NCBI GenBank assembly: GCA_036939755.1
Contig: JALLAZ010000474.1
Location: 1 to 15,124 of the forward strand
Direction of reading: 5' to 3'
Source: Stephanodiscus triporus
Lineage: Eukaryota > Bacillariophyta > Thalassiosirophyceae > Thalassiosirales > Thalassiosiraceae
DNA length: 15,124 nt
The position numbers and the translations under genes are program-made. How positions within the stretch are numbered: the stretch's first letter is position 1; each line of letters begins with the position of its first letter. This document shows positions 1 to 15,124 of this stretch, one piece after another. A model generated the notes under the pieces. The model was not told the origin of the DNA, did no database searches, and saw only the letters and a list, made by a program, of their open reading frames with translations.

Positions 1-191
1 GTCTAATAAGGATTAACACAGCCCTCAATCTTAACTTTTTACGATATGGGGAACACGGTACGTAGGGGTGCATTTTCTCGCGGATTGCTTATGCAGCGTA
101 TTGACAGCGTATTTTTTACGGTAGAGGCCGCCGTGTTGGACCCCGCCCGCCCGCCAAGGCGAGGTGGGGACACGGCAAACAACGAAGGAAA
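1..191 (+). promoter_or_regulatory. Upstream region of the superoxide dismutase gene
   Basis: This stretch has no open frame of note and holds the promoter and leader of the SOD gene that starts at 192. It contains a tandem 9-mer, cagcgtatt, at 94-102 and again at 105-113 (11-bp period), then a GC-rich segment that folds into the hairpin listed separately. No TATA box or initiator could be assigned with confidence. Confidence 0.5.
130..176 (+). promoter_or_regulatory. GC-rich hairpin just before the SOD start codon
   Basis: Seen in sequence: gccgtgt (130-136) pairs perfectly with acacggc (170-176). After a four-base bulge (137-140), cccc (141-144) pairs with gggg (166-169). A G-U pair, two C-G pairs and a final 4-bp stem (148-151 with 158-161) lead to a six-base loop at 152-157. 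That is about 18 pairs, ending 15 bases before the ATG. If the leader is transcribed through it, it should strongly affect ribosome scanning. It could instead act as DNA or be incidental to GC-rich promoter sequence. Confidence 0.5.
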
Positions 192-1189
192 ATGAATCCA
201 CGCAAGCTCTTCGTATCCATCATCGTTGCCATCGGCTCATCTGCGACTTATGCTGCACCGTTCGAACTACCTCCTCTTCCCTACGGTTATGAAGCCCTTG
301 AACCGTTCATCGGTAAGACAACGTTAATGACGCATCACTTGAAACATCATGCAAAGTGAGTGGCAACTTTGTTGCGTCGTTGCAAATGAATGCGTGCCGT
401 GTTTTTTTTTCTAATTAGGAGTATTTGTTGATATTAACCCAAAACAACCTCGGACTGCTTGTTTGAAGGTATGTCGCCACGGCGAATATGTTGATCGAAA
501 GTGGAGGCGCCCTACTGAAGAATCTCTCACAAGAGCAAATCATTACTGCCGTCTCTTCCGGCACCGAACTCCACACCGAAAACGTTGGTCTATTCAATAA
601 CGTGGCCCAGTCGTGGAATCACAATTTTTACTGGCACTCCATGAAACCAGGCGGTGGCGGCGAGCCACACGGTTTGCTCGCGGACAAAATTAAGGAGGAC
701 TTCGGTTCGTACGATAAATTGATGGGAGAAATGGAGAAAGCTGCGATGACTACATTCGGGTCAGGATGGGCATGGTTGGGATTTGATAAGTATCATAGAA
801 AGTTGGTTGTTACCAAAACTACAGGTGAGGTTCTATGCGCCCATTTAAATGCTTACGTTTGGATTTAGTTAGGCTTAATTCCAGGTTATTTTTTTATTTT
901 ATTGAATATCGCTAGGAGCTGGAAATCCGCTTACGGATGGCATCGTGCCTATTTTGACAATCGATGTGTGGGAGCATGGTAAGAACTAATGTGTATTTTT
1001 CTGCTGGTCTCAGTGGTGAAAAAGTTGCACTAAGCTTTCCCAGCATATTACCTAGACTACCAGGAGCGACGTCAAAATTATGTGAATACATTTTTTGCCG
1101 AGCTTGTCAATTGGAATTTTGCAGAATCGAATTTCATCATAGCCGCTGCTGAAGATGTCGTGGAGACGGGTGAGGCAGATGAGCTGTAG
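192..1189 (+). CDS. Iron superoxide dismutase with signal peptide (4 exons)
   Basis: It converts superoxide to oxygen and hydrogen peroxide. Exons 192-355, 469-824, 916-978 and 1044-1189 are joined at GT..AG introns of 113, 91 and 65 nt and give 242 residues. Residues 24-31 (FELPPLPY) match the usual start of bacterial and plastid Fe-SODs. Predicted metal ligands are H48, H106, D190 and H194. Y56 is the active-site tyrosine, and Q102 before WNH (residues 104-106) favours iron over manganese. The body ([10 protein letters not shown], then WEHAYYLDYQ) is full length. Residues 1-22 are a hydrophobic signal peptide ending TYAAP, and the SOD domain begins at once, leaving little room for a plastid transit peptide. 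The protein ends GEADEL, which resembles a K/HDEL-type ER-retention tail. The ATG has A at -3. The family call is firm; the location (ER, secreted or plastid) is inference. Confidence 0.95.
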
Positions 1190-1304
1190 GCCAGTTGATA
1201 GGTTTCAGTGAGCAATGAAGAAAGAACAATCCAAAAAATGCTATTGGGGAGTTTAGAAATACTGCAGAGGTGTGCAGCTAGAAGTGTTATCATTTTAGGG
1301 GACT
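1190..1304. other. Convergent 3' intergenic spacer
   Basis: These 115 bases separate the stop codons of two converging genes (SOD and the coiled-coil protein). The only structure seen is a small perfect stem, ctgca..tgcag, near 1262-1277. It presumably holds both 3' UTR ends and polyadenylation signals, but none could be assigned. Confidence 0.4.
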
Positions 1305-2060
1305 TTACCGCGTCAAACTTTTTCGATCAGCTATAATTCCGAGGGCAGCACCCAATTTTTCTGCAGCTATTCTCTCCATCTTTTGACTGGCCTCCAATTC
1401 AACTTTGATATTAGTGTATCGCCGCATAAGTCGCTCTAAGGCAAACTGACGGCGTTTCTTCTGCTCTTCCTTGCCGGCATTGATCCGTTTCTGGAGCGCA
1501 CTCAACTCCTGTCGCTTGGCAGCCTTGAATTGATTCTCTTGCTGGAGCATCTCCTTCTGCTTCATTTGGTTCCATTGTTCTGTTTCAGTGGCTTCCATGA
1601 GGTCGGCCTTAACCTTGACTTTGTGTGCTTCGTTGTATTTCTTCGACTTCGCCAGGTGCTCTTCAATATTGCGATAATTGAGCAATACTGGGGAGAATTT
1701 CGGTTTTTGCTGCCTCTCGAGCAGAGTCTGCTGAAATTCTTTCAATTCATTCAAATGTCTTTCTTTCATGGCATTTATTTGATTTTGACATTGGTCGTCA
1801 AACTCTTTGCCTTTCTGATCCCACTGTGTATTGAACTGTTGGTATTCCAGCATGTGTGCTTCCTCCACGCCAAGCCTCTCCTTACGTTGCTGCGCTTTCA
1901 TTGTCTCGTGCCGCCGATTCGCTTCATGAGACTTAAGTTCTTCGAAACGCTTCTTCGCCACCTCCGCTTCTACATATTTTCCTTGCTGCTCGCAATTTTT
2001 TCTATGCTCTTCTAGAATCTGCAAAAAGTCTGCAATGGTAGACTCCTGCGTTTCATTCAT
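1305..2060 (-). CDS. Conserved coiled-coil protein, function unknown
   Basis: Single exon, 251 residues, almost entirely charged and helical, with long runs of E, K, Q and R predicted to form a coiled coil. There is no signal peptide or membrane segment. The start is the ATG at 2060 (MNETQESTIADFLQ), with G at -3; the frame is open for 12 codons further but has no other ATG there. The centre carries motifs that look conserved rather than generic: LEYQQFNTQWDQ, MKERHLNELKEFQ, KPKFSPVLLNYRNIEEHLAK and YNEAHKVKVKADLMEATE. From memory these resemble a family spread across plants, algae and other protists, but I cannot name it or give it a function. It is divergent from the calpain gene and shares its upstream region. 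A structural or cytoskeletal role is possible but not shown. Confidence 0.85.
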   Translation of the reverse strand: MNETQESTIADFLQILEEHRKNCEQQGKYVEAEVAKKRFEELKSHEANRRHETMKAQQRKERLGVEEAHMLEYQQFNTQWDQKGKEFDDQCQNQINAMKERHLNELKEFQQTLLERQQKPKFSPVLLNYRNIEEHLAKSKKYNEAHKVKVKADLMEATETEQWNQMKQKEMLQQENQFKAAKRQELSALQKRINAGKEEQKKRRQFALERLMRRYTNIKVELEASQKMERIAAEKLGAALGIIADRKSLTR

Positions 2061-2406
2061 TTCAGTCAAGAAGTGTTTAATACCCAAGCAAGCCAATGGT
2101 CGCCTCGACTACTTTACCTATAGAGACATGAGAGAGAGAGAAAAGAAAAGAGAGCAAAGAAACCTGAGAACTGAGAACTCTACGCAAACGCGCCATTTTC
2201 TTTGGAGCAAACCGCGCGCTCTGCGTGTCGAATAAAAGGTACCATTCGCTACACAGGAATAAGTATCTATCTACGTATCTACTCACTCTTCTACTTCGTT
2301 CGATAAACCGCTGAATTCGCCACCCCTACCTCCACCTCCACCCCCGCCCGCATCGCGCATCGTATTCTTGCCTCCCCCGGCAGCCGTTGGCGTCGGCGAA
2401 AAAAAT
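2061..2406. promoter_or_regulatory. Shared divergent upstream region of the coiled-coil and calpain genes
   Basis: These 346 bases lie between two divergently transcribed start codons, so both promoters must be here. It contains a 25-base pure purine tract (2130-2154, GA-rich) and a pyrimidine/C-rich stretch (about 2319-2350, cctccacctccacccccgcc). Both are the kind of low-complexity sequence often seen in compact promoters and leaders. No TATA box was recognised. The calpain frame is open upstream of its ATG as far as an in-frame TTG at 2368, but there is no upstream ATG to extend it. Confidence 0.5.
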
Positions 2407-5400
2407 ATGGATGTGGTGGAGGTGATTGATCTATTTTCGGACGATGAAGGCTTTGGAAGTGCCAAGGAAAACGAAACTTCCAAAGCCAACGATCATCTGC
2501 CGCGTCGTGGTGTTATTGGTGACCACGAAAGCAAAACGCTGCAACGTCCCGGCGACCACGCGGAGGGGGGTGGCGTCGGGGAAAACTCCTATCAAATCGC
2601 CAGGGAAAAAAAATTGACCGGTGCTATAATGATAGACGTCGATTGCTCGCCAAAGCAGCCGTCGATGAACAAAGTGAGCAGCAGACAAGCTGTGAAGAAT
2701 CCCTACAAAAAGCTGCCGGAGGATGCGCCCTCATTACAGAATCCCAGCAAAAAGAAGAGAAAAACTTATCAGGTAAAACATCCACCCTGTCAAAGAGAAC
2801 TGCAAGCGGGTCTTGTTTTTGAGGAGGACGTAGACCACAACACCCAACATGGTCGTGCATCTCCCTCGTTAAAATCGTTCGAAAATGATGATCATTCATC
2901 CGGGGACGGAGAGTTAGACAGTCTTCTGACGAATCCTCCGTCGGCTCGAGTATATTCACAGCATCAGTTGACAACTCGCCTAGCCCATCACCTCCCGCCA
3001 ATACTTCATCACGACCTTGATTTCGTCGCGGGCAACCCTGCAACAATAGACGGCAGTGGTGCCAAGAACAGCAAATCAATTGCGCCGCCAACATGCAGAT
3101 GCCGTCCGCCGAGGCCATGTAGGCTTGCATATTCTTCTAAGGCTGGGCCCAATCATGATAGACCATACTATTGTTGCCAAGAGAGCAGGGTTGGTGGATG
3201 TAACTTCTTTTCCTGGGCATTCACCTCACACATTATGCACTGGTATAGATTTGGTAGTCACAATGGCCATGTGTTGGTGAATTCGAACAGAGGATTCCGC
3301 GCAGAAGATTTGGTGCAGGGTAAAGTTGGTGATTGCTGGTTTTTGAGTGCTTTGGCAGTCGTCGCGGAACGAAATGACCTCATCGGTCGTTTGTTCGGTG
3401 CCAGTCCCGTAACAGATGGCGGCGTCTGCTTTGAAAGAAATGGTGTGATGCACCCAAGAACCAGCGATAATTTTGGAGTGGTAGAGGTGAAACTGTTTGT
3501 CGATGGCTTTTGGAAGATAATCATCATGGATGACTTCTTACCCTGTATCATAGACCTACAAAGTGAGAAGGAGGAAGAAGACAGCATTCAATTAGCGGTA
3601 AAAATGAGTTTGGAAGATGCTGGAATCAAACACAAATGGCACGCAAATACAGCCGACTCGAACAAAAAAGATAGCAACAGACGAGTTTCCAGTAAATTTG
3701 ATCCACATTCCATAGCAGATGACTGCCGTCAGACCCTCCATGAAATCCACGACTTTCTTCACCAAGATAGATTTCGCAAAGACCCTTCGTATCGTTCCAA
3801 TCCTCAGACCTTCCTCGGCCATAGTACTCGTCCTCTTCATAGGAATGTCATGACCTCTGACCTAGCATATTCCAAGGCACGGCATAATCAACTATGGGTT
3901 CCATTTGTCGAGAAGGCATATGCTAAAATTCATGGATCTTATCGTGCCATCAGTGGAGGTCAGGTTGAAGAGGCGTTCTTGGTGAGTGGATTGGTTCTAA
4001 TACTTGCAATATTGAGTGTGATATTTGATATAAAATACTGAATTTTATTTCTCACATAACAATAGGATCTTACCGGTGCTCCGACGGCAGTCTACTATTT
4101 TGATCACCAGGACTTCAATCCGCGTCTGTTTTGGAGTGAACTAATGCAATTCAGATCGAAGGAACTTCCGATGGGATGTGGAACTTCGAGTTCGCAAGTC
4201 GGAATAATCGGTATGCATGCATACAGTATTCTCGACGTGCGAGAGGTGAGAAATGTTGGCCTCGACTTCTTCCGTGATAAACTAGCACAACGAACATTGG
4301 GGAACGTCAGTGGATACACTGAGTTTGATGGAACAGTTCGTTTGCTTCGTATTAGGAATCCGCACGGCCAAGGTGAATGGAAAGGAGAGTTCAGCGACAC
4401 TTCTCCTGTATGGGAGCGATTGATGAAAAACAAAAATGACAATTGGAAGGAATCAAAAGGCTTGGTTGATCTGACGGTCCCACAAAGCCCTGAGCTCGAA
4501 CGCACCATGATAAACGATGGGACTTTTTGGATCGATTATGATTCATTTTTGATGGGTTTCTCAAATGTCGATGTTGTATTGGCATTCCACGGTAATCACG
4601 CCAAATCCTTCAATAGCAACTTTCCTACGAAAACTTCCAACCACCGTTGTAGCAGAGCATTCGAACTGAGCGCAATCGATCGGCAACCGGGAGAGGATGG
4701 GCCCTACAGCAAAAAGGTTGAAGTATACGTCATGATCATCCAAAAAACAAGGCGTGGTGCTTCTCTTGGCAGGTCTGACCGGAAGAAAAGCTACAAAGCA
4801 TGTGATGTAGGCATCCTTGTGGGTGAACGTTCAAACACAGGAGAGATAAGTGGAGAAGGAGAGCTAAATGCTGTTGATGGGCGATTTTTCGGTTTGACGA
4901 GAAATGGACATATACGGTTAGTCTTGGACCGCAGTTTACCAGGCAAGAAGGTCGTCGTTATGCCTATATCTTTTGGCCACCCGAGCGCCACGGATGAAGA
5001 ACGAAGTTTTGTTGTGAGAGTCGTTTCAGACTCACCTCTCTTGTTTGAAGAACTTCAAAAACCGCCAAAAATGAATTTAGTTTTACAGAAATACTGCTTT
5101 GGCGAAAAGGTCATGTCGCTCAGCAATGCCGGCACATCACGGCATGTAGGCACGCAAGGAACAAAGTCAGTTCTGCTGGAGTGTAGGGTAAACAATTCTT
5201 ACCTGTACAGAATTCTACGAATCGATTGCCTAGCTGGTGGCGGTGGAACTATACTGTTATTTCTAGTGGTAAACGATGAACTTGTTTCTATGAAGTCAGA
5301 AGAGATTTCATTTTCTATTGAGATTAATTGTCGTGGGATGGTATGCAGATCAGTGGAGGGACTAGAGAATCATGAAGTCATAACAAAAGGTAAAAAGTTT

Positions 5401-5883
5401 GAGGCTGCGTGGCGGCGATTTTCTCTCAGTTTTTTCGGTGAAAACAAGTCCAGGCTATTAGCAGCTGTGGTCCAAGGAGGTCAAGACTACCAGATAGGTT
5501 CAATTAAATGCATAAAATCGGATGCATGTCCTGCTGCTACCAGGCCAATGCGTGCAGTCTCGATGGATAAATACCACAAATACGAAGACTTCGGTGTTTT
5601 TGCATCTTTAGATATGCCACCTGAAATTCTCAGAGCTGAATGTGTTGATTTATCATCGACTTCCCCCTATCCAAAGAAGAAAGGCGAACAACTCCAAATA
5701 GACTCTCATGAGCTACCTGGGATTGACGAGGATGCTCACCTGGATGCCGCAATAATGGCGTCAATAATGGAGAATAACGGTGGTGTTGATGTCACAGAAA
5801 CTCGATGTTCATTTGATCAAGACATAGAAAAGGCAATCGCGTTGTCGTTAAAAGATCAGCAGTTTCAACTTCCGCAATCATAG
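2407..5883 (+). CDS. Calpain-type cysteine protease with SIM-like motif, NLS, GRF zinc finger and three UIMs
   Basis: Exons 2407-3981 and 4066-5883 (84-nt intron) give about 1130 residues. The ATG at 2407 has A at -3 and G at +4. Order: SIM-like VIDL plus SDDE (6-14); basic cluster KKKRK (115-119); disordered linker; GRF-type zinc finger (230-272: CRC, KAGPN, DRPYYCC, CNFFSWAF); calpain catalytic domain (about 272-692) with C310 in GKVGDCWFLSA, H576 in GMHAYSILDVRE and N623 in RNPHGQGEWKG, so the triad is intact; beta-sandwich-like region (about 700-1060); two C-terminal UIMs (1079-1096, 1109-1122). A roughly 105-residue insert inside the protease core (about 385-490) carries another perfect UIM match. 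No EF hands were seen. The protease call is firm. SUMO/ubiquitin/DNA binding is motif-based, and a nuclear role in removing or trimming modified proteins is inference. CAPN15/SOLH is a known analogue in having N-terminal ubiquitin-binding zinc fingers. Confidence 0.93.
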
Positions 5884-6171
5884 ATTGGATAAGAGATGAA
5901 GGGTGGAGTGTTGTGGGATGCATAGCTTTTATTCTTGTTTCGCTTACAACACATAAGCAACAGTTCTTTGGGCCTGTTGTCCGCACCTTCTGGAAAGACT
6001 ACATCCGTGGGGCGTAAGATGGAGGAACCAAATGTTCCCTAAGTTCCTCCAGCCTGTCTTATCATTGCACACATTTCACTGATCCCACAAACGAAGCTCA
6101 CAAGGTTCAAATCTTGGCCTAACTTTCATTCTTTCCATGTGTAATACTACGACTTCATTGAACTAGTGCTT
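5884..6171. other. Convergent spacer with a 9-bp hairpin
   Basis: No coding sequence is seen between the stop codons of the calpain (+) and PrsW-like (-) genes. At 6020-6051 tggaggaac and gttcctcca form a perfect 9-bp stem around a 14-base loop. The loop also holds gttcc, which could pair alternatively with ggaac. This may be a 3' UTR element on either transcript. A tRNA T-arm look-alike sits at 6101-6117 but has no tRNA around it. Confidence 0.5.
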
Positions 6172-8663
6172 TTAATCGCTCTTCGTTTTCTTCAGCATTG
6201 CATCGGTTTGCAACTTGGCATTGAAGGCATGCAACTTGCCAGAATACGTAGTTGTGCGTTTCATTGCCTGACGACAAATGAGGTAATAGTTCTTTATACA
6301 AAACCCATAGACGCGACAGAGTATTGTCAGCCAGACAAGTTTGGCATAACTCTTGGGCAGGAGTTGTTTCCAAACTTGATCACTGCCGCCTTTCAGCTGA
6401 TTTAATTGCATTTCGGACCACGGTGTGGATGAGTTCCATTTGAATATTGGCTAGACAGTAAAGTCGAAGAGAGAGAAAGCAGCATCAAAAGTTTATACAC
6501 AGTACGATAACAGAGAAGGCATTTTCCTTCAAAACCTGACAACGCTGAACAGCTTACCTTCATCCCTCTAAAATTTGCCATTCCGTGTATGAAAACGGCT
6601 GGGCCTAGTATTTGCCACTGCGGCAGGTTAACACCTAAGACATCCCTACGAGCAAGCAGTAGAGCTGTCATCGTACCACAAAGCTCATGTATTGGGAACG
6701 TCCCCCGACAGATAGCATATGTGCGTTTATACAAATCACTGCCTTTCGTGTACATCAAAATCCTTCGAGTAACATCGAATAATTTCAGGCCTAAACTCGC
6801 CGCGAGCATCTGCCACGAATTAAGGAGCTTATTAATAGCACAAGATAAACATGCAAGAAGATGACTACAGCATATTCTACCCACCTGTGTCACGTAGCAA
6901 TTGATATTCGTTACCTGTGGAGCGTCAATGCTCCTCACGGGCTGAAGAGAATAATTCTGCTTCCTCCGCCTTTTACTCTTCTGAACCTTCTTGCTCTGTT
7001 TGAAGTTTCTGCGTAGCGGACGAGAAGATAAACAAATAAGACGAAGTCAGATTGACACTCTCCCGTAAAGAGTACATGTGGCGGCTAACCTTGGCAGCTT
7101 GCATGTCCACTGCACCACCTTCAATTTCAAATACTCCTCAATGATCGGACTAGCCAAACAGCTGGCGAAAAAGTCTGCAGCGAACAATGTGATCCTCTTC
7201 GGCTTGTACTGTTTCTCGCGCAATACCCATGGCAATACAATCGATGGTACCATGGGAGTTAAGGAAAAGATGGCCGGTTCCCAGATCTTGAACACTCCCA
7301 ACCGAACTATTGTAGTTACAACAACTTCTGATATTAAAGCCAAGGCATACCCCAAGGTGAAGGAAACATGAAACGTCCCAATCTTCATTGGAAACACGAT
7401 GGAAAATAATGCCGCAAAAGAGCAAAACAACGCTCGTCAGTGTAGGAGGAAGAAAAAGAAAATCTAGTTGGATAGCAAGATATCTTTGGTAACTCACTGC
7501 AGCATTGATATTGTTATACCTTCCATCAAACACACTCAGGAACATTACGACAGGAGCAATCGTTCCAATTGCGACGATAGATAAATTTTGTAGAAACAGT
7601 CGATTGTACTCGGGGAATGGAACCGATCGCGGCGATACTGCACAATATGATAAGAGCGCCATGCTCACGGTCGCGAATATCACCTTTTGGATGGAATCGA
7701 AAGAAATTTCGGTGTTGGCGCCGGATATTAGTACATCATGCTCAGATTCGTCATCTATCAGTTGTTCAGCACTATCGTCTCTAGACTTGATCATTGGTGT
7801 TTTCACATTAGTGGCCACAGTGGAATCGACGATTATCCCCCTACTACTGCCGCTTGACATCATGGATATAGATGCCGATCGTGGTGATATGAATGCAGAT
7901 TTGACCCCCATTCTTGTCCTCCCGTCCATTGTATCGGCTTCGCCATTTGTCATCTCTGCAAGGTTCGCGGCCGCGGTAGCAGAGATTGCATTTCCATCCG
8001 TGGGAATCGGTATGGCCAATGTATTGGTTCGTTCTCCTCCATGATTGTTCACACGCTGACCGTAGTTTTGTTGTTGCTGCTGCTGTTGATGCGGCTGGGA
8101 TAATGGCCGCTTCATTGACCAGCCACCATTGGCATTGTTATTTTTGCGATTGTAGACGCCTACTCCTTGATGCTGAAGTTGTTGTTGCTCACTACTACTG
8201 CCGCCATCTTGATAGTAGCTTGATAAGGGCTGTTGTTGCTGCTGTTGTTGTGGCGGTAGAGGGGGGGGGAGATGAGGGGGATGAGGGTGATACAACGGTG
8301 CTCCTTGTTGCTGGGGAGGGATATGCAAGTACGATGACGGTACGCCTCCACCTCCCTGCTGCTGATGCTGCTGCTGCAAGTGGTAGAGGTGTTGAATATG
8401 TCGTGGCGCCGTAGTTGCATATGATGCCGTTCCCTGAATCTGCTGCTGTAGGTGAGGATTATCTATATACGGATATTGCTGGGACTGTTGTTGTTGCTGG
8501 GGTGCCACTTGAAAGGGAGTTTGAGAAGATGGAGGAGGCGGCGGAGGGGGCAGAACAGGGTAATAATACCCATTGGCAGCAGCGGCAGCGGCAGCCTGTG
8601 CCCACATAGCATACTGCTCCTGATCGTATTGCCCGTACTGACTCTGTTGCATCGTCGTTTGAA

Positions 8664-8730
<67 letters not shown>

Positions 8731-10338
8731 ATAATTATGGCCGTAATGATATTGCTGCGATAATGGCACCGCCTGTTGTTGCTGATGTGGCGGTTGCTGT
8801 TGAAGATAGTGCGGGTATTGTTGCTGGGAATTTTGATAGACACCCTTATTTGACAAGTGCAGAGGAGGAGGCTGTTGCTGCTGCTGTTGATTTTGACCTT
8901 GGCGTGCTTCTGGAAAATTATAGTATGGCTGGCTCATGATACCACCAACATTTAGACCAGGTAGAGGAGGAGGTGGGGTCACTTTTTGTTGCATTGCTTG
9001 ATGGTACCTTTGTTGTTGGAGTTGCTGCTGATTGTTTCTAGTACTGGAAGATCCAGCAGGTGGGTGAAGATTGCTTTCCTCGTCATCCTCGTCGTCCTCT
9101 TCCTCCTCCGTCTCGCCATCGCTCAAGTATACCGGCAAGTTAGGCAACTCAAATCCCATGCTACTGCCTCCACCTCCTACTCCTCCGTAATAGCCATACC
9201 CGTCATCGGTTTCGTCATCCGTTAAGTCGGTAGTCTCGTCAAATTGAGATACTTGCTGCAGCTTCGACTGCAGTTCCTCCTCCTTCTTTTCCAACGACAA
9301 CAAAAACTCCTTCTTTCGTTCGCGCTCTTCGAATATGATTCGCTGTCGTTCCATGTCACGCAACTTACGCGCATTTTCATCCCGCTGGCGTTGTTTCTCT
9401 GTGCGTCGCGTGCGGCGATATTTGGCTCGATCCTTGGATGTCCATAACTTCTCGGGTTGTGGCGGTGAGGTAAGGTCGTTATCTGCTGCTGATGATGACA
9501 TTGCTTCTTTCGATGCTGCAGCCAAGGCTCTCTTCTTCTTCTCATCATCGCTATCTATTGTCGATGACGTTGGTGTTATCATTGATGATGACGACGATGA
9601 CGACGATGACGATGAGACAGAATGAGTGGCATAATCGGTATCATCCAACATCGCCTGGAGTCTTTTCAGCGTTCGGAGCGGCTGAGAAGATGCCACGGTA
9701 GTATCCAATGACGTGATTTTTTGCTGCAGGGACGCATTGATTGATGTTAGCGGTGACCACGACGCCGATGACGAAGACGACGATGAAGAGGTCGTCCCAC
9801 CATCAAAAACCTCTCCCCCCCCTGGGGCAGGGTAATAATCGTCATCTGCTTCTTGTCCATTATCATTTTCATCATCTGCATCAGATCCTCCGGGGTATCC
9901 TCCTCCTCCTCCTCCGCCTGAAATCGCGTCAAAACTTTCGTCATCCCTCATTCGATATTCACGTTCGCCATCACTGGCATGGTCATTAATTCTATCTGCT
10001 GCCGGTGGACCCTCCCCACCATTGTCGACATTCTTGGTCCCTCCATCATAACTGCCTTCGCCATAAACGACAGCGTCATCGTCGTCATGATCATAATTCT
10101 TGATTAGGTCATTCCCAAGAGCACGTCCATCACCGTTGCCGTCGTCCATGACTGTGATTTCCGACATCACCAGAAATGGCGCATTGTTATCATTGCCCGA
10201 TGGTGACGATGCGCCAACAAGAATCAAAAAGGCGGGAAGACCCCCGAGTAATGCGGTAGTAGGCAATGATGACGTTGATGATATTATGACGACAACGGCA
10301 CACAATGCCGACAGCGAAATGCTTCCCAGTCGGCTCAT
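6172..10338 (-). CDS. PrsW-like intramembrane protease with long polyQ/low-complexity N-terminal region (5 exons)
   Basis: Proposed exons, in transcript order: 10338-7498, 7382-7090, 7008-6885, 6809-6558 and 6450-6172, with introns of 115, 81, 75 and 107 nt; about 1262 residues. The frame is kept across every junction. The N-terminus has a hydrophobic signal-like stretch (about 8-43). Then come D/G/S-rich acidic tracts, a charged helical segment (about 300-355), a Q/P/Y-rich prion-like region (about 430-770) including Q537-Q558, and hydrophobic segments from about 887. The C-terminal part has the PrsW signature: E1029-E1030-x-x-K1033 in SPIIEEYLK, H1127 in FPIHELCG, and H1161/N1165 in FIHGMANF, each in or next to a membrane segment. 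PrsW proteins are glutamic intramembrane proteases, close to the CAAX-protease/ABI group. The 115-nt intron is the least certain junction, since its upstream frame stays open for about 350 nt. Substrate and organelle are unknown. Confidence 0.8.
8665..8730 (-). repeat. CAG trinucleotide repeat coding for 22 glutamines
   Basis: Read on the minus strand, 18 uninterrupted CAG codons (8730-8677) are followed by CAA and three more CAG. They encode Q537-Q558 of the PrsW-like protein. Shorter CAG/CAA runs are scattered from about 8060 to 9030. The pure run should be length-variable by slippage. Confidence 0.98.
9580..9615 (-). repeat. Degenerate trinucleotide repeat coding for poly-serine
   Basis: The plus strand reads gat/gac repeats; the minus strand reads tca/tcg codons for about 11 consecutive serines in the PrsW-like protein. 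A similar serine run lies near 9765-9790. The mixed codons (TCA, TCG) suggest an older or more constrained tract than the pure CAG run. Confidence 0.85.
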
Positions 10339-10558
10339 TTTTCTTCAACTTCTTCCGTTGCATCCGCAGTAGTGGGTAGTGGCCGTCGCCGACGAGTAGA
10401 CAATTTTGGAAACAATTCTCTTGCCGATGACTGGCACCGTTATTCCTGCCCCAGCGCCGCCGCCGCCCAGAGGAGATTTTGCTGCTGCGCTGCCTCTGCG
10501 CGTTGATGATCGTTTCGACTTCGGTGTCGTTTGCGAGTGCAGCCTAGGTAGACAGGTA
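10339..10558. promoter_or_regulatory. Upstream region of the PrsW-like gene
   Basis: No convincing gene is seen. The minus-strand gene starts at 10338, so this contains its promoter and leader. The plus strand has an open frame through here (from a TTG at 10406) with a proline-rich stretch, but no ATG and no recognisable domain. Confidence 0.4.
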
Positions 10559-10760
10559 CGTACTACAGTCTCCAGTACAACTGCACCAAGGGAAAAATCG
10601 AGATATTTCCCTTTGTACTGTTCCTACAGTAGCTGTCTACGAGAAGCTAGGGGAAGCTAGAGGTTCCCCTAGCTTCTCGTAGAGACCTACTGTAGGAACA
10701 GTACAAAGAGAAATATCTCGATTTTTCCTCTGGTGCAATTGTACTGGAGACTGTAGTACG
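10559..10760. repeat. Long inverted repeat, 97-bp arms, 8-bp loop
   Basis: The left arm 10559-10655 and right arm 10664-10760 are reverse complements over 97 bases without gaps and with six mismatches; the spacer is gctagagg. Arm ends are cgtactacag and ctgtagtacg. The element lies in intergenic DNA. It could be a foldback/MITE-type element, a small-RNA precursor, or a local inverted duplication. No clear target-site duplication was found. Just beyond the right arm, tacgatac and gtatcgta (about 10757-10796) form a further small inverted pair. As RNA the whole element would be a nearly perfect long hairpin. Confidence 0.93.
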
Positions 10761-10835
10761 ATACATACTAGAGTACGACGTATCGTAGAGTACATTTTGA
10801 ACCCAGGCAGGGGATTTGCGAGAATCATAGAAGGA

Positions 10836-10976
10836 CTAACTCTCTTCGGCCTGTTCCGCTGAATAGATAGTACGTATGGTATCCATCGTGGCGGAGAACT
10901 TCAGGGAATCGGAAGCCAATTCGTCGTACGTTATGTCATGCGGATATTCATTTTTAGGTATTTTGTGAGCTCCCAT
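10836..10976 (-). CDS. Possible small protein of 46 residues, unrecognised
   Basis: A minus-strand frame starts at ATG 10976 and ends at TAG 10836-10838. The start context is accATGg, an ideal eukaryotic one; an in-frame ATG two codons earlier (10982) could add MT. The sequence (MGAHKIPKNEYPHDITYDEL, then ASDSLKFSATMDTIRTIYSA, ending EQAEES) is acidic and of normal composition, with no signal peptide or membrane segment. An in-frame stop upstream of 10982 rules out a longer unspliced start, but it could be the last exon of a spliced gene. It is divergent from the NTF2-like gene about 110 bases away, and its 3' UTR would run into the long inverted repeat. I do not recognise a family. It may be a chance frame. 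Confidence 0.4.
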   Translation of the reverse strand: MGAHKIPKNEYPHDITYDELASDSLKFSATMDTIRTIYSAEQAEES

Positions 10977-11089
10977 GGTCATTGAATATGGAATAGTCTC
11001 TCAATTCTCAACTTCATTCGAGCATATCCACAAGCATAATATTGTTTCTTTATACTTGCGGTGCAGAGGTTTAGTCACTGGAAGTAGCC
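10977..11089 (+). promoter_or_regulatory. Upstream region of the NTF2-like gene
   Basis: About 110 AT-leaning bases precede the ATG at 11090. If the small minus-strand frame is real this is a divergent promoter. No specific element was recognised. Confidence 0.35.
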
Positions 11090-12365
11090 ATGCGATTTCT
11101 TTTCATCCTCATCAGCATTCTGGCGGTCCGATTCGACCACTCGTCGGCCTTCGTTTCTCCTCCCATTTCTGGTGCCTCCTCCACCCCTCTTGCTACTGCT
11201 ACCATTAGACCTGACATCATTCGATGCAATAACGACGCTACTTCTCCTACCAAACCTCCTACCGACGCCACCATTGGTGGCGGTGGCGACAACAAAAACA
11301 TTTTCAACTCCTTCCTATCGTCTATATTCAACAACAGGGAAAATGGAGGACAGAAGTCCCTCGCGGCGCGATCCCTCCTCCTGTCGCTGATCAACGACGA
11401 GCGATGCTTTTCCACTGTCGACGGGGCGAAGAAATTCGCCATGTCGTGCGCCGTCGACGTCGTGTATGAGGATTGCTATGCCTCCTCCCAACCCATCGTG
11501 GGCCGATCGGCCGTGGAGGAGCACCTAACGTCCAGGGCTCTTGCGCGCATCGGCGGCGGCACGGATGAGCCCGGCTTTCGAATCGACAGGATTTCCGACG
11601 GGTCGATTGCCTGCGGCTTCGCGTGGACGTGGACGTCGCCGTCGGCGTCATTGGAGGGATTGCGCGGTACGACGTTCGTGGAATTGGACCCCACCACCGA
11701 TGAAATCAGATACGTCAGGGAGATACCGGAACCGCTGTACAAGCCCGGGAATTTGATATTGGATCTCCTCAAGGCCGCGACAGCCAACGCCGTACCCAGG
11801 CCCCCTCCGCAATTCGTGCGAAGGACTCCCACTGCGGCGAACGAGATCGCGAAGTACCTGTTCAACGACTTGCAGGGATCCGATTCTTCGGAGGCAATGC
11901 GATTCTTCGACGAGGGGATCGTGTACAGGGATTTCAATTTCGAGGAGGTGCTCAGAGGAAAGGTGGAAGTTAAGAAGTTTATCGATGGTGAGTTTAGCAT
12001 GTCCACGCGGCGCACGCGTAGGTATTTGTAAAAGAAAGCTCAAAAGCGTCGGACATTTCTTGACACTTTCTCCTCCAGATTTTAGCTTCCCCGGAATCAC
12101 CTTCGCCACGCAACGATTCGATGATGGAGTGAAATCTACCTGTTTCACTTGGGAGGTGGTCCTGGATGGCGCCCCCGAGGGCAGTACAACAAAGGGCATT
12201 AGCTTTTACGAGGTTGATCCAGTCACGGGCCTCATTACGTACGTAAGAGACGTGCCTGAGAGTGGGATCAAACCGCCACCTCTCGGAAGGCTAGCGAGGT
12301 TGATTCGTCCTGCATTGGGCGTATTTCGACCAGTCGCCATGGGAAGCAGAGAGGGTGGCCTCTGA
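11090..12365 (+). CDS. Probable plastid-targeted protein with two NTF2/SnoaL-like domains (2 exons)
   Basis: Exons 11090-11987 and 12079-12365 (91-nt intron) give 394 residues. Residues 1-20 are a signal peptide ending HSSA, then FVSPP: phenylalanine right after the predicted cleavage site is the diatom plastid-import pattern, and the following S/T/P-rich stretch (about 21-60) fits a transit peptide. The mature part has two similar halves. Half one (about 95-225) has CAVDVVYEDCYASSQPIVGR, the strand pair ending FAWTWTS and TTFVELDPTTDEIRYVREIP. Half two (about 255-380) has the parallel features EGIVYRDFNFEEVLRGK, FTWEVVLDG and GISFYEVDPVTGLITYVRDV. This layout (helices, then repeated strand pairs ending in xxYVRDxP) is typical of SnoaL-like/NTF2-fold proteins of algal plastids. 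No catalytic residue or ligand can be assigned. The fold call is by pattern; targeting is inference. Confidence 0.85.
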
Positions 12366-12773
12366 ATGAAAAATTCTTTCGTCTTTGCGGTGGTGTGGTG
12401 TGTGTGCATGTGAGACTTAAGCAATCATAAGATTTTGTTCAAAATGAGAAGAACCATTTAGATATTGTAAAATGCGGTCTGTTTGCATCGATCCCTCTGA
12501 CAAATCACAATTGTCATGTACAGCAACCGATCTTCCAAACAAATGACAAGACTCATAAGGGACCTGCTCGAGCGTTCCGGGTGAGAGGGTCTGCACTCTC
12601 AAACGCTCCGATGAGAGTTGATATGTACACATGAAAAAGGTCTGTGTGTCGTGACATGACAGCGTAATAATTCCTAGGTATGGAAATCTTCATACAATAG
12701 TCAGGAAATAACTTTCGAACATCGTTACACAATGCTTAACCATATCCAACAGATGCTAGATACATCGAAATCC
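12366..12773. other. Convergent spacer with a two-part stem-loop
   Basis: No gene is seen in these 408 bases between two converging stop codons. At 12570-12608 gagcgtt pairs with aacgctc (7 bp) and, inside a 5-base bulge, tgagag pairs with ctctca (6 bp) around an 8-base loop, giving 13 pairs in 39 bases. This could be a 3' UTR element of either neighbour. Confidence 0.5.
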
Positions 12774-13955
12774 TCATACGGCCTTTTGCTTCGATGCCAA
12801 CGGTCCCAAGAACTTGGCCTTCTCCTCGGCCGTCTGGAACCTCCCGTGTCCGAGCTTCGAGCTCGTGTCGATGAAGCGCAGGTCGATGCTCTCCAGGTGC
12901 TTCCTCGAAGAATGCGCCATGAGGGCCTTCCGCAGGATGAGCGGTCGCTTCTTGACCCCGACGACGGCGCCCTTGAGCATGACCCAGTCCTCGCGGATCA
13001 TTCCGTAGTGCACGAACCCCCCCATGGGGGTGATGGACTTCTCGGTGAGGTCGGCCTCGGTCTGGCAGGAGGCGTTGTCCCCCTTCTTCCCTATGCGGTA
13101 GATCTTCTTGTTCATCTCCGTGCGGTGGAAGTACCCGTTCTGTCCCGCGCGCGGAACGGTGGACGAGACGCGACTGGGATGCCACGAGCCGATGCAGGCC
13201 ACCTTGCGCAGACCGCGGTGGGTCTTTCGGGGGAGGCGGGAGACGCCCCAGCGGGTGACGACGCCCTCGTATCCGTGTCCCTTCGTCACGCCTAGCACAT
13301 CGACGAGCTCGTCCTTCGCGAAGACCGAGTCAACGGTAACCTCCTTCTCGAACAGGCTCTTGGCGAAGTCGACCTTGGCCTTGGCGTCGGCGCCTCCATT
13401 GATCTGCACCTCCATGATGTGGGCCTTCTTGATACGAAGGTGGAGCTTCTTGGGCTGGGAGTGGGTGATGACCCTCACGACCTTGCAAAACTTCGCGATC
13501 CGATCCAGCTCGGCCTCGATGTCCTTCCCGTCGTTCTCGGTGTACTTCTTCGCGTACTTGGAGTAGGCCTTCTTCTTGGACTTGTACCAGTTCTTGTAGC
13601 ATCTGCGCTTGAACTCCTCGCTCAAGTGCTCGGCGAAGACGGTGGTGAGGGTGCGAAGTCCGCGGGGGGTCTCGAGGTAACCGACGACGCCGACGACGAC
13701 CATGGGAGGGGTCTCGAGGATGGAGACGGCGTCGACGACCTCGCGCTTGTGCATGACGGCGCCGGGGCGGTCCACGCCTCGGACGACGTGGGTCATCCCC
13801 GCCTTGTAGGCGCGGAAGGCGGTGAGGTGGGGCGGCGCTGAGGGGTCGGCATCGCGGGGGAAGGATCGGATGCGACCGGAGTGGTGCTTCGTGCGCTTCT
13901 TGGGGAGGAAGCCGAGGTTGCCCCGGCGGGGGGCTTCAAACTTGCGGTGGGACAT
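12774..13955 (-). CDS. RPL3: Cytosolic 60S ribosomal protein L3 (uL3)
   Basis: Single exon, 393 residues, the normal length for eukaryotic L3. The protein is a core large-subunit component close to the peptidyl-transferase centre. It shows the standard N-terminus [20 protein letters not shown], the start of the beta-barrel in [14 protein letters not shown], and the highly conserved [18 protein letters not shown] and [12 protein letters not shown] regions. It ends in a basic tail, [13 protein letters not shown]. The start at 13955 is chosen because it matches the family N-terminus exactly; an in-frame ATG at 14045 would add 30 unlike residues and is rejected. Codons end mostly in G or C, unlike the neighbouring genes, as expected for a highly expressed gene. 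This also gives long open frames on the opposite strand, which are shadows. Confidence 0.98.
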
Positions 13956-14794
13956 GGTTCGGTTTTTTTGCGTTTTGTAGGAGAAAGGGTGATGTGGTAT
14001 CGTAGTTACCGCTTTACTTGATTTTTTTACAACTGCGCTATGCACTCGTTCCCGCCTTAAAACCAGGTATTTTGTATGTGGGGTTGACTAAAATGTAACC
14101 ATCTCTTTTTTCGGATGGTGCTCTGACTTTTCTGGTACATAATGAAAACGTACTATCCCATTGTTGGGATGGTGTCTAAAATTATTTGGTAATAAATGTA
14201 CAGATTCCCTCATACCTGGGCTCAAGGTGGAATCCATTTTTTTGGACCGGAGTTTTAAATTTTGTCCGCCAAATGCAGATTGATATGAAATCGTATTAGT
14301 GAGACGAATTCGTACTTATCATTAAATGATACGAATTTGTATCATGTTATGTCATGTTGCTAGAAAATTATCTTTCTCTCTTGTAGTTGTTCAGGCGGTA
14401 AGTGAGTTTTATGTGAGGATGTTGTCGTTGACTCTTCGTAGCTTTGACTCTAAGTAAGGGAAATGAGCGTATTCCGATTCTGCAAAGTATTAGGTAACTA
14501 CGATACCGGAAATCCGATCAGTAATTTTTCTCAGGGACACTTTTTGACCAAAAGGAATTCAGACGCAAAATGGCGGGAGCGTTGCTTAGACTGCGTATTC
14601 CGATTCGCCTTGTGAACAGATTTGATTAACAATAAAGAAGATTATTTCCGTAAAGGGTAAAGTCACATTTAATTCTTCAAAATAGGCTCTCTTTGAGAAA
14701 TCCCAACTCAGGGTGTGATCCTTAGTTTTGCTTTAACTCTAGTAGTCCAGTTCCCAGGGGGCGGGGGCACGTCCAGCGGGCTTTGGTGTAAGCC
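13956..14794. promoter_or_regulatory. Gene-free region upstream of RPL3 with palindromes and short repeats
   Basis: No coding region or RNA gene was recognised in about 840 AT-rich bases. It must contain the RPL3 promoter and leader on the minus strand and the 3' end of the serine protease transcript. Visible structure: two small perfect hairpins (14098-14119 and 14155-14170), two palindromes (14304-14313 and 14326-14345), and a 14-bp direct repeat (14467-14480 and 14593-14606). Confidence 0.5.
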
Positions 14795-15124
14795 TTAGTA
14801 TTGGAAAAGGCCCTCACCTCCGGAGGACAAGTTAACACACACCCAATCGAGCGCGCTGGCATGGTCCACGCGGAAGTAGCCGCCAGTACCGGCACAATTT
14901 TGGTTGAGAACGAAGGAGGACACCCCGGCAACTACATCACTGTCATTGAAGAAAGCAGGACCGCCAGAATCGCCAAGGCAGATTCGGCCCATGGCTGCAT
15001 TGTTTGAAACAACTATAGCATCATAGTCATGAACGATGCCGCTGTTGATCTGGATCAGATTAACGGTTGTATTCATATGGACTCGATAGGCTTCAATTTT
15101 GCTTTCGACAGGGCTTGCATATTG
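14795..15124 (-). CDS. Trypsin-like serine protease, C-terminal fragment (cut by window edge)
   Basis: The frame is open from the window edge to the TAA at 14795-14797, giving the last 109 residues. It contains the chymotrypsin-family nucleophile motif in RICLGDSGGPAFF (serine codon 14966-14968). The usual downstream elements follow: a strand DVVAGVSSFVL, a cysteine in NQNCAGTGGYFRVD and the terminal helix start HASALDWV. The cysteine before GDSGG and the later one (in NQNC) fit the conserved disulfide. The histidine and aspartate of the triad lie beyond the window, so activity cannot be judged. Diatoms encode many secreted proteases of this type; the substrate is unknown. Confidence 0.9.
   Translation of the reverse strand, partial: QYASPVESKIEAYRVHMNTTVNLIQINSGIVHDYDAIVVSNNAAMGRICLGDSGGPAFFNDSDVVAGVSSFVLNQNCAGTGGYFRVDHASALDWVCVNLSSGGEGLFQY

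Follow-up and report, generated by a model that had tools for sequence, protein, structure and literature searches.

A diatom GRF-calpain with conserved SUMO- and ubiquitin-interacting-type motifs

The analysed stretch of DNA, here called the window, comprises positions 1 to 15,124 of the forward strand of contig JALLAZ010000474.1 in the genome assembly of the diatom Stephanodiscus triporus (GCA_036939755.1). At 2407-5883 it carries a gene for a calpain with a GRF zinc finger. The catalytic triad and the zinc ligands of this GRF-calpain are invariant among its aligned relatives, motifs resembling the SUMO-interacting motif (SIM) and the ubiquitin-interacting motif (UIM) are conserved, and the model of a close relative matches the calpain fold. 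We consider the chances even that the diatom GRF-calpain is a nuclear cysteine protease held at DNA and steered to SUMO- or ubiquitin-modified chromatin proteins.

Gene structure, protease domain and GRF finger

The features are listed below by window position (aa, amino acid residues of the product).

2407..3981, plus strand: exon 1, aa 1-525, open frame, donor GTGAGT after 3981; relatives align across the junction
2422..2448, plus strand: SIM-like VIDLFSDDE, aa 6-14
2749..2763, plus strand: basic cluster KKKRK, like a nuclear localization signal, aa 115-119
3088..3219, plus strand: GRF zinc finger, aa 228-271 (PF06839); own-genome match at the same place; NEIL3 GRF chains match
3235..4575, plus strand: calpain catalytic domain (PC1, insert, PC2), split by the intron; PF00648 pieces 3235-3549, 3856-3978 and 4063-4575; fold match of relative P0003
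3334..3336, plus strand: catalytic Cys310
3574..3618, plus strand: UIM-type motif in the PC1-PC2 insert, aa 390-404, EEDSIQLAVKMSLED
3982..4065, plus strand: GT-AG intron, 84 bases
4066..5883, plus strand: exon 2, aa 526-1130, including the stop codon
4216..4218, plus strand: catalytic His576
4357..4359, plus strand: catalytic Asn623
4591..5067, plus strand: beta-sandwich domain after the protease, about aa 701-859; approximate limits transferred from P0003 723-881
5128..5520, plus strand: second beta-rich region, approximately aa 880-1010; strands in the P0003 model at residues ~912-1035
5644..5658, plus strand: weak second SIM-like VDLSS, aa 1052-1056, acidic flank poor
5728..5772, plus strand: tail UIM-type motif 1, aa 1080-1094, EDAHLDAAIMASIME
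5812..5856, plus strand: tail UIM-type motif 2, near the C-terminus, aa 1108-1122, FDQDIEKAIALSLKD

Joining the two exons across the GT-AG intron restores the calpain frame, and Pfam Peptidase_C2 spans both exons. The product has 1130 residues, and the continuous two-exon gene, coordinates and length of the original prediction, made from the sequence alone, are all correct. The start Met at 2407 is backed by relatives: in many of them a short N-terminal run leads into V-I-[DE]-L at the same position. The transcriptome-derived relative P0057 (an MMETSP Pseudo-nitzschia record) has all these elements in a single protein: a SIM-like motif, the GRF finger, the protease domain and UIMs.

Homologue searches returned 357, 385 and 338 proteins, and the best 120 of each were taken. 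Their sources include Thalassiosira, Cyclotella, Nitzschia, Pseudo-nitzschia, Seminavis, Amoebophrya, Symbiodinium, Durusdinium, Effrenium, Prymnesium, Aureococcus, Cymbomonas, Mesostigma and Chloropicon. When the window protein is aligned with 36 relatives, the predicted Cys-His-Asn triad is intact and invariant (37/37 at each of the three positions), and the oxyanion-type Gln304 is unchanged throughout. A wider alignment of 67 sequences retains Cys in 67, His in 67 and Asn in 64, with Asp in the other 3. Together with the Peptidase_C2 match (PF00648, E = 1.4e-48, well above background), the CysPc domain and triad place the protein in the calpains (peptidase family C2), and proteolytic activity is predicted from what is known of the family. 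The model of P0003 matches calpain cores in fold, and the nearest solved structures by sequence to the whole protein are human calpain cores and NEIL3 GRF fingers. The fold comparison extended only marginally into the second beta-rich region, which is the region relevant to a C-terminal SOL-homology domain.

Glu629, Asp636, Asp676 and position 678 correspond to what we take to be calcium ligands of the calpain core. The first three are kept in 37/37 aligned sequences, which fits a calpain regulated by calcium that serves motility, adhesion or cell division and whose reader-like motifs merely control turnover. The Seminavis genome paper links eight raphid-signature calpain-domain genes to adhesion and motility, and a 2026 review proposes a calpain role in cytokinesis; in their accessible text, however, neither offers a test of a GRF-calpain. 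Moreover, position 678 is Thr here (T in 25/37), the window lineage is centric and non-gliding as judged by its relatives (Thalassiosira and Cyclotella), and calpain family matches in the window's own genome (21.65 Mb, 1324 contigs) fall at one locus only, the 2407-5883 gene. We regard this explanation as improbable.

The GRF finger scores 35 bits with the Pfam model Zn_ribbon_GRF (PF06839, E = 1.5e-8) against a cut-off of 25.9, and is thus not a background match. When the GRF region alone was compared with solved structures, NEIL3 GRF chains were matched (7omk, E = 2.6e-9; 7jl5, E = 3.4e-9), as was APE2 (E = 0.011). Cysteines 230, 232, 257 and 265 are invariant in 37/37 aligned sequences, whereas the Pfam model picks up just 19 of the 37 at E <= 0.01. 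GRF has therefore diverged in many pennate relatives while retaining its zinc ligands. With the finger N-terminal to CysPc, the protein is a GRF-calpain (Zf_GRF-CysPc). In NEIL3 and APE2 the GRF fingers sit on DNA repair enzymes, whereas here the finger sits on a protease.

Conservation of the SIM- and UIM-type motifs

Motif counts were made with strict patterns and with shuffled tails as control, the compared proteins being related and shuffling being blind to kinship. Among 48 diatom-type proteins (44 of the diatom clade, Amoebophrya and three further relatives), a tail UIM is found in 42 (shuffled mean 0.86, maximum 4), an insert UIM in 32 (mean 0.14, maximum 2) and a tail SIM in 28 (mean 2.5, maximum 7). 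An N-terminal-tail SIM is found in 30 of 46 (mean 1.0, maximum 4). The UIM pattern occurs 132 times in the inserts and tails of these proteins, compared with 0 times in 32,741 folded and 8,731 N-terminal-tail residues. It is also common among 76 GRF-calpains with short inserts, where a tail UIM is found in 54/75 (shuffled mean 2.16) and a tail SIM in 12/75 (mean 2.46, maximum 7). The N-terminal tails are mostly unalignable apart from islands: V-I-[DE]-L-L-S-D near the N-terminus, NPY, LQAGLV-EED and a block directly before GRF. Within this variable tail of the diatom relatives, the islands NPYxK and LQAGLVFEEDV correspond to window aa 85-150 (DNA ~2659-2856).

The window protein belongs to a clade of 12 members (Shimodaira-Hasegawa-like approximate likelihood ratio test, SH-aLRT, 99). 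A V-I-[DE]-L type SIM-like motif stands near the N-terminus in 10 of the 12, the exceptions being P0001, a record without start Met, and P0006, in which the motif is missing. All 12 have a basic cluster of four residues; a strict insert UIM is found in 10/12, at least two tail UIM cores in 11/12 (P0034 is short, 736 aa), and the weak second SIM-like sequence, as [IV][DN]LS, in 9/12. The predicted motifs are thus conserved in close relatives, and their content and order hold with one refinement: the first UIM lies inside the catalytic-domain insert and the other two after the protease.

Could these matches be chance in acidic low-complexity tails of a plain GRF-calpain? The SIM and the C-terminal motif described below are short patterns, and a SIM-like match occurs in 14.6% of 5000 whole-protein shuffles, so the case for the SIM rests on conservation, not on the single sequence. 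The three predicted UIM consensus matches do fit the pattern (cores beginning at aa 394, 1084 and 1112), and the same 5000 shuffles gave a mean of 0.04 UIM matches and none with three. The Pfam UIM model, however, falls short of its cut-off of 21 in the window protein, reaching 10.6 bits over two stretches, so the UIM case also rests on conservation: at E <= 0.01 the model finds 22 of the 37 aligned proteins, and P0046, P0111 (Prymnesium), P0129 and P0149 exceed the cut-off. Given these matches and the shuffled-tail and folded-region controls, we consider chance very improbable.

Other reader motifs in relatives, and neighbouring genes

RX5AAX2R is the reported consensus of the p97/VCP-interacting motif (VIM), a basic helix binding the p97 N domain, and the VIM of gp78 has an extra arginine ahead and a hydrophobic residue behind (PMC5389986). 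The C-termini of relatives, such as KRRLAAEAALRRM, fit this description. A VIM-like match lies in the last 30 residues of 29/48 diatom-type proteins (shuffled mean 0.55, maximum 3). These are 25 of the 44 diatom-clade proteins (25/33 outside the window clade and 0/11 counted inside) and 4/4 of Amoebophrya and its neighbours. Since these four group with the diatoms in the 55-row set (SH-aLRT 96), the simplest reading is of a VIM that is old in the diatom/Amoebophrya branch and has disappeared from the Thalassiosira-like lineage. At least 10 changes are needed over 123 rows, so the VIM is not a perfectly stable trait. The window protein has no VIM, nor have the 11 counted members of its clade, and none was found in the three forward frames from 5861 to 7100; of the p97/Cdc48-binding motifs, VIM was scanned for and SHP was not. 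Outside the diatom-type set a terminal VIM is no commoner than in shuffles (2/75, mean 0.57). Two green-algal GRF-calpains, P0109 and P0107, end in LRAARLARF and LRAARLRHF and recall the VCP-binding motif (VBM), another p97 motif with the reported consensus EhRRRRLxhh, more than VIM.

Other reader domains were also found on GRF-calpains. UBA_4 is above its cut-off in P0163 and P0166 (Chloropicon), and PBZ, which reads poly-ADP-ribose, in P0129 and P0138. Precomputed Pfam lists of the best 120 relatives add up to at least seven proteins with UBA_4, at least three with PBZ and many dinoflagellate-type ones with a CCHC knuckle. The PBZ-bearing GRF-calpains group with the haptophyte Prymnesium (support 100). 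PBZ adjoins or closely follows the catalytic domain in P0129 and P0138 (and, by precomputed Pfam, in P0140), and P0129 also has an above-cut-off UIM. In support of PBZ as a poly-ADP-ribose reader, a table in Zhao 2012 ties Zf_CCHH to DNA strand-break repair.

These domains bear on a further alternative, namely a ubiquitin-directed calpain of the CAPN15 type, cytoplasmic or membrane-bound, in which GRF is a protein-protein or structural module without a DNA repair role. CAPN15 is reported to act as a calpain directed by ubiquitin, with E-cadherin as a substrate; across all GRF-calpains no motif is more widespread than the UIM, as the 54/75 of the short-insert set illustrates, and Pfam recognises GRF in only about half of the aligned relatives (the 19/37 above). 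Conversely, the N-terminal SIM-like motif and the basic cluster are conserved, the four GRF cysteines are kept in every aligned sequence, and PBZ is present in two scanned relatives. We judge this alternative rather unlikely, though more credible than the motility or division role.

As for the rest of the window, pieces of an iron/manganese superoxide dismutase lie at 488-868 and flanks, probably a multi-exon gene (Sod_Fe_C, E = 1.5e-12), and ribosomal protein L3 is encoded on the minus strand at 12774-14045 (E = 1.6e-164). Two further minus-strand frames match no Pfam family at E <= 0.001: a long one with glutamine, serine and glycine runs at 7150-10338, and a 263-aa charged, coiled-coil-like one at 1305-2096, divergent from the calpain gene.

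Relation to known proteases and proposed function

GRF-bearing calpains have already been described (Zhao 2012, Rawlings 2015 and the 2026 review), with the GRF finger directly ahead of the catalytic domain as here; the accessible text of these accounts gives no SIM, UIM, VIM, PBZ or function. Rawlings 2015 reports a UBA-GRF-calpain in Ostreococcus and Micromonas, an architecture repeated in the 2026 review, and diatom calpains (Thalassiosira, Fragilariopsis) are noted in this literature for a divergent MIT domain. The novelty claimed by the original prediction does not extend to GRF or UBA plus GRF on a calpain; the wider set of SUMO- and ubiquitin-type motifs appears undescribed. A calpain with both a SUMO-interacting and a ubiquitin-interacting motif was not found in the literature searched, outside which most subscription papers lie, and this is no proof of novelty. 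Calpain and zf-GRF co-occur in four papers of that literature, one of them a cancer review that names each of the two once. Among the matches listed for calpain with crosslink-repair terms, no title dealt with a calpain in crosslink repair.

The predicted comparison with Wss1 finds support. Wss1, a yeast WLM metalloprotease, is reported to be activated by DNA and to carry SIMs alongside VIM and SHP motifs (PMC4559962). The diatom GRF-calpains, likewise predicted proteases, have a conserved candidate SIM, a DNA-binding-type finger and, in relatives only, a VIM, and the comparison is strengthened by that C-terminal VIM-like motif. Unlike Wss1, the window protein has a calpain-fold cysteine protease, no WLM domain, added UIMs and no VIM: a Pfam scan at E up to 10 listed six families, among them neither WLM nor SprT nor any RanBP family. 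The most economical statement is that the GRF-calpain resembles Wss1 in working mode without being a Wss1. CAPN15 and the SOL calpains likewise combine a calpain with N-terminal zinc fingers, with ubiquitin-directed action reported there; their fingers are of the RanBP/NZF type, whereas here a GRF finger and UIMs are found. Zhao 2012 suggests independent origins of the two types of calpain zinc finger.

For the nuclear, DNA-held protease proposed at the outset, the following mechanism can be envisaged. By analogy with APE2, whose GRF is reported to bind single-stranded DNA (ssDNA), the GRF finger would hold the protease at ssDNA or damaged DNA. From family knowledge, the basic cluster would send it to the nucleus, and the N-terminal SIM, the insert UIM and the tail UIMs would select SUMO- or ubiquitin-modified chromatin proteins. 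The UIM within the PC1-PC2 insert could link ubiquitin binding to closure of the catalytic site, and the VIM of relatives would bring Cdc48/p97. Wss1 would be the precedent for a DNA-activated SIM/VIM protease and CAPN15 for a ubiquitin-directed calpain. The most speculative element concerns the substrates: as with Wss1, these might be DNA-protein crosslinks or chromatin proteins that have become trapped. The window's own genome matches CDC48_N once and gives eight SUMO-like matches, of which some could represent other ubiquitin-like proteins.

Several points weigh against this proposal. The kinship of the compared proteins, the window UIM score, the limited recognition of GRF by Pfam, and the absence of VIM from the window clade and its rarity outside the diatom-type set have been given above. 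In addition, no experiment on any GRF-calpain was found in the literature searched, and one published account reads the calpains of raphid diatoms in terms of motility and adhesion. The window genome also encodes one SprT-like protease, so that the calpain would share the proposed role with at least one other candidate; a search of this genome for WLM gave no match, which is weak evidence. The SprT-like protease (C178:7812-8147, locus L004:22-1896) has a long acidic disordered region before SprT, reminiscent of GCNA, with the SIM-like stretches IIEILDDED and VVILSDDEE.

Taken together, the domain content, motif order, conservation and Wss1 comparison of the original prediction stand. Its novelty as stated does not, and the window UIMs score below the Pfam cut-off. 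The interpretation is plausible and better backed than sequence alone could show, with a function that is hypothetical. More tentatively, and with the odds against it, GRF-calpains may form an ancient unrecognised class of SUMO/ubiquitin-directed, DNA-tethered cysteine proteases, coupled by VIM to Cdc48/p97 in many diatoms, equipped with UBA or poly-ADP-ribose readers in other algae, and convergent with Wss1, SPRTN and FAM111A.

In the accessible text of a review of DNA-protein-crosslink proteases, which covers metallo-, aspartyl and serine proteases, there are 0 occurrences of the phrase "cysteine protease". If the proposal is true, a class of calpains fitted with modules of the DNA, SUMO, ubiquitin and p97 types would represent a fourth catalytic chemistry for crosslink proteolysis, and the widespread algal GRF-calpains would gain a testable function. 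The single calpain locus of the window genome, like the single calpain reported for Thalassiosira pseudonana, would offer a simple test bed. Even without a repair role, the recurrence of ubiquitin readers on GRF-calpains would carry the idea of ubiquitin-directed calpains beyond CAPN15 to algae.
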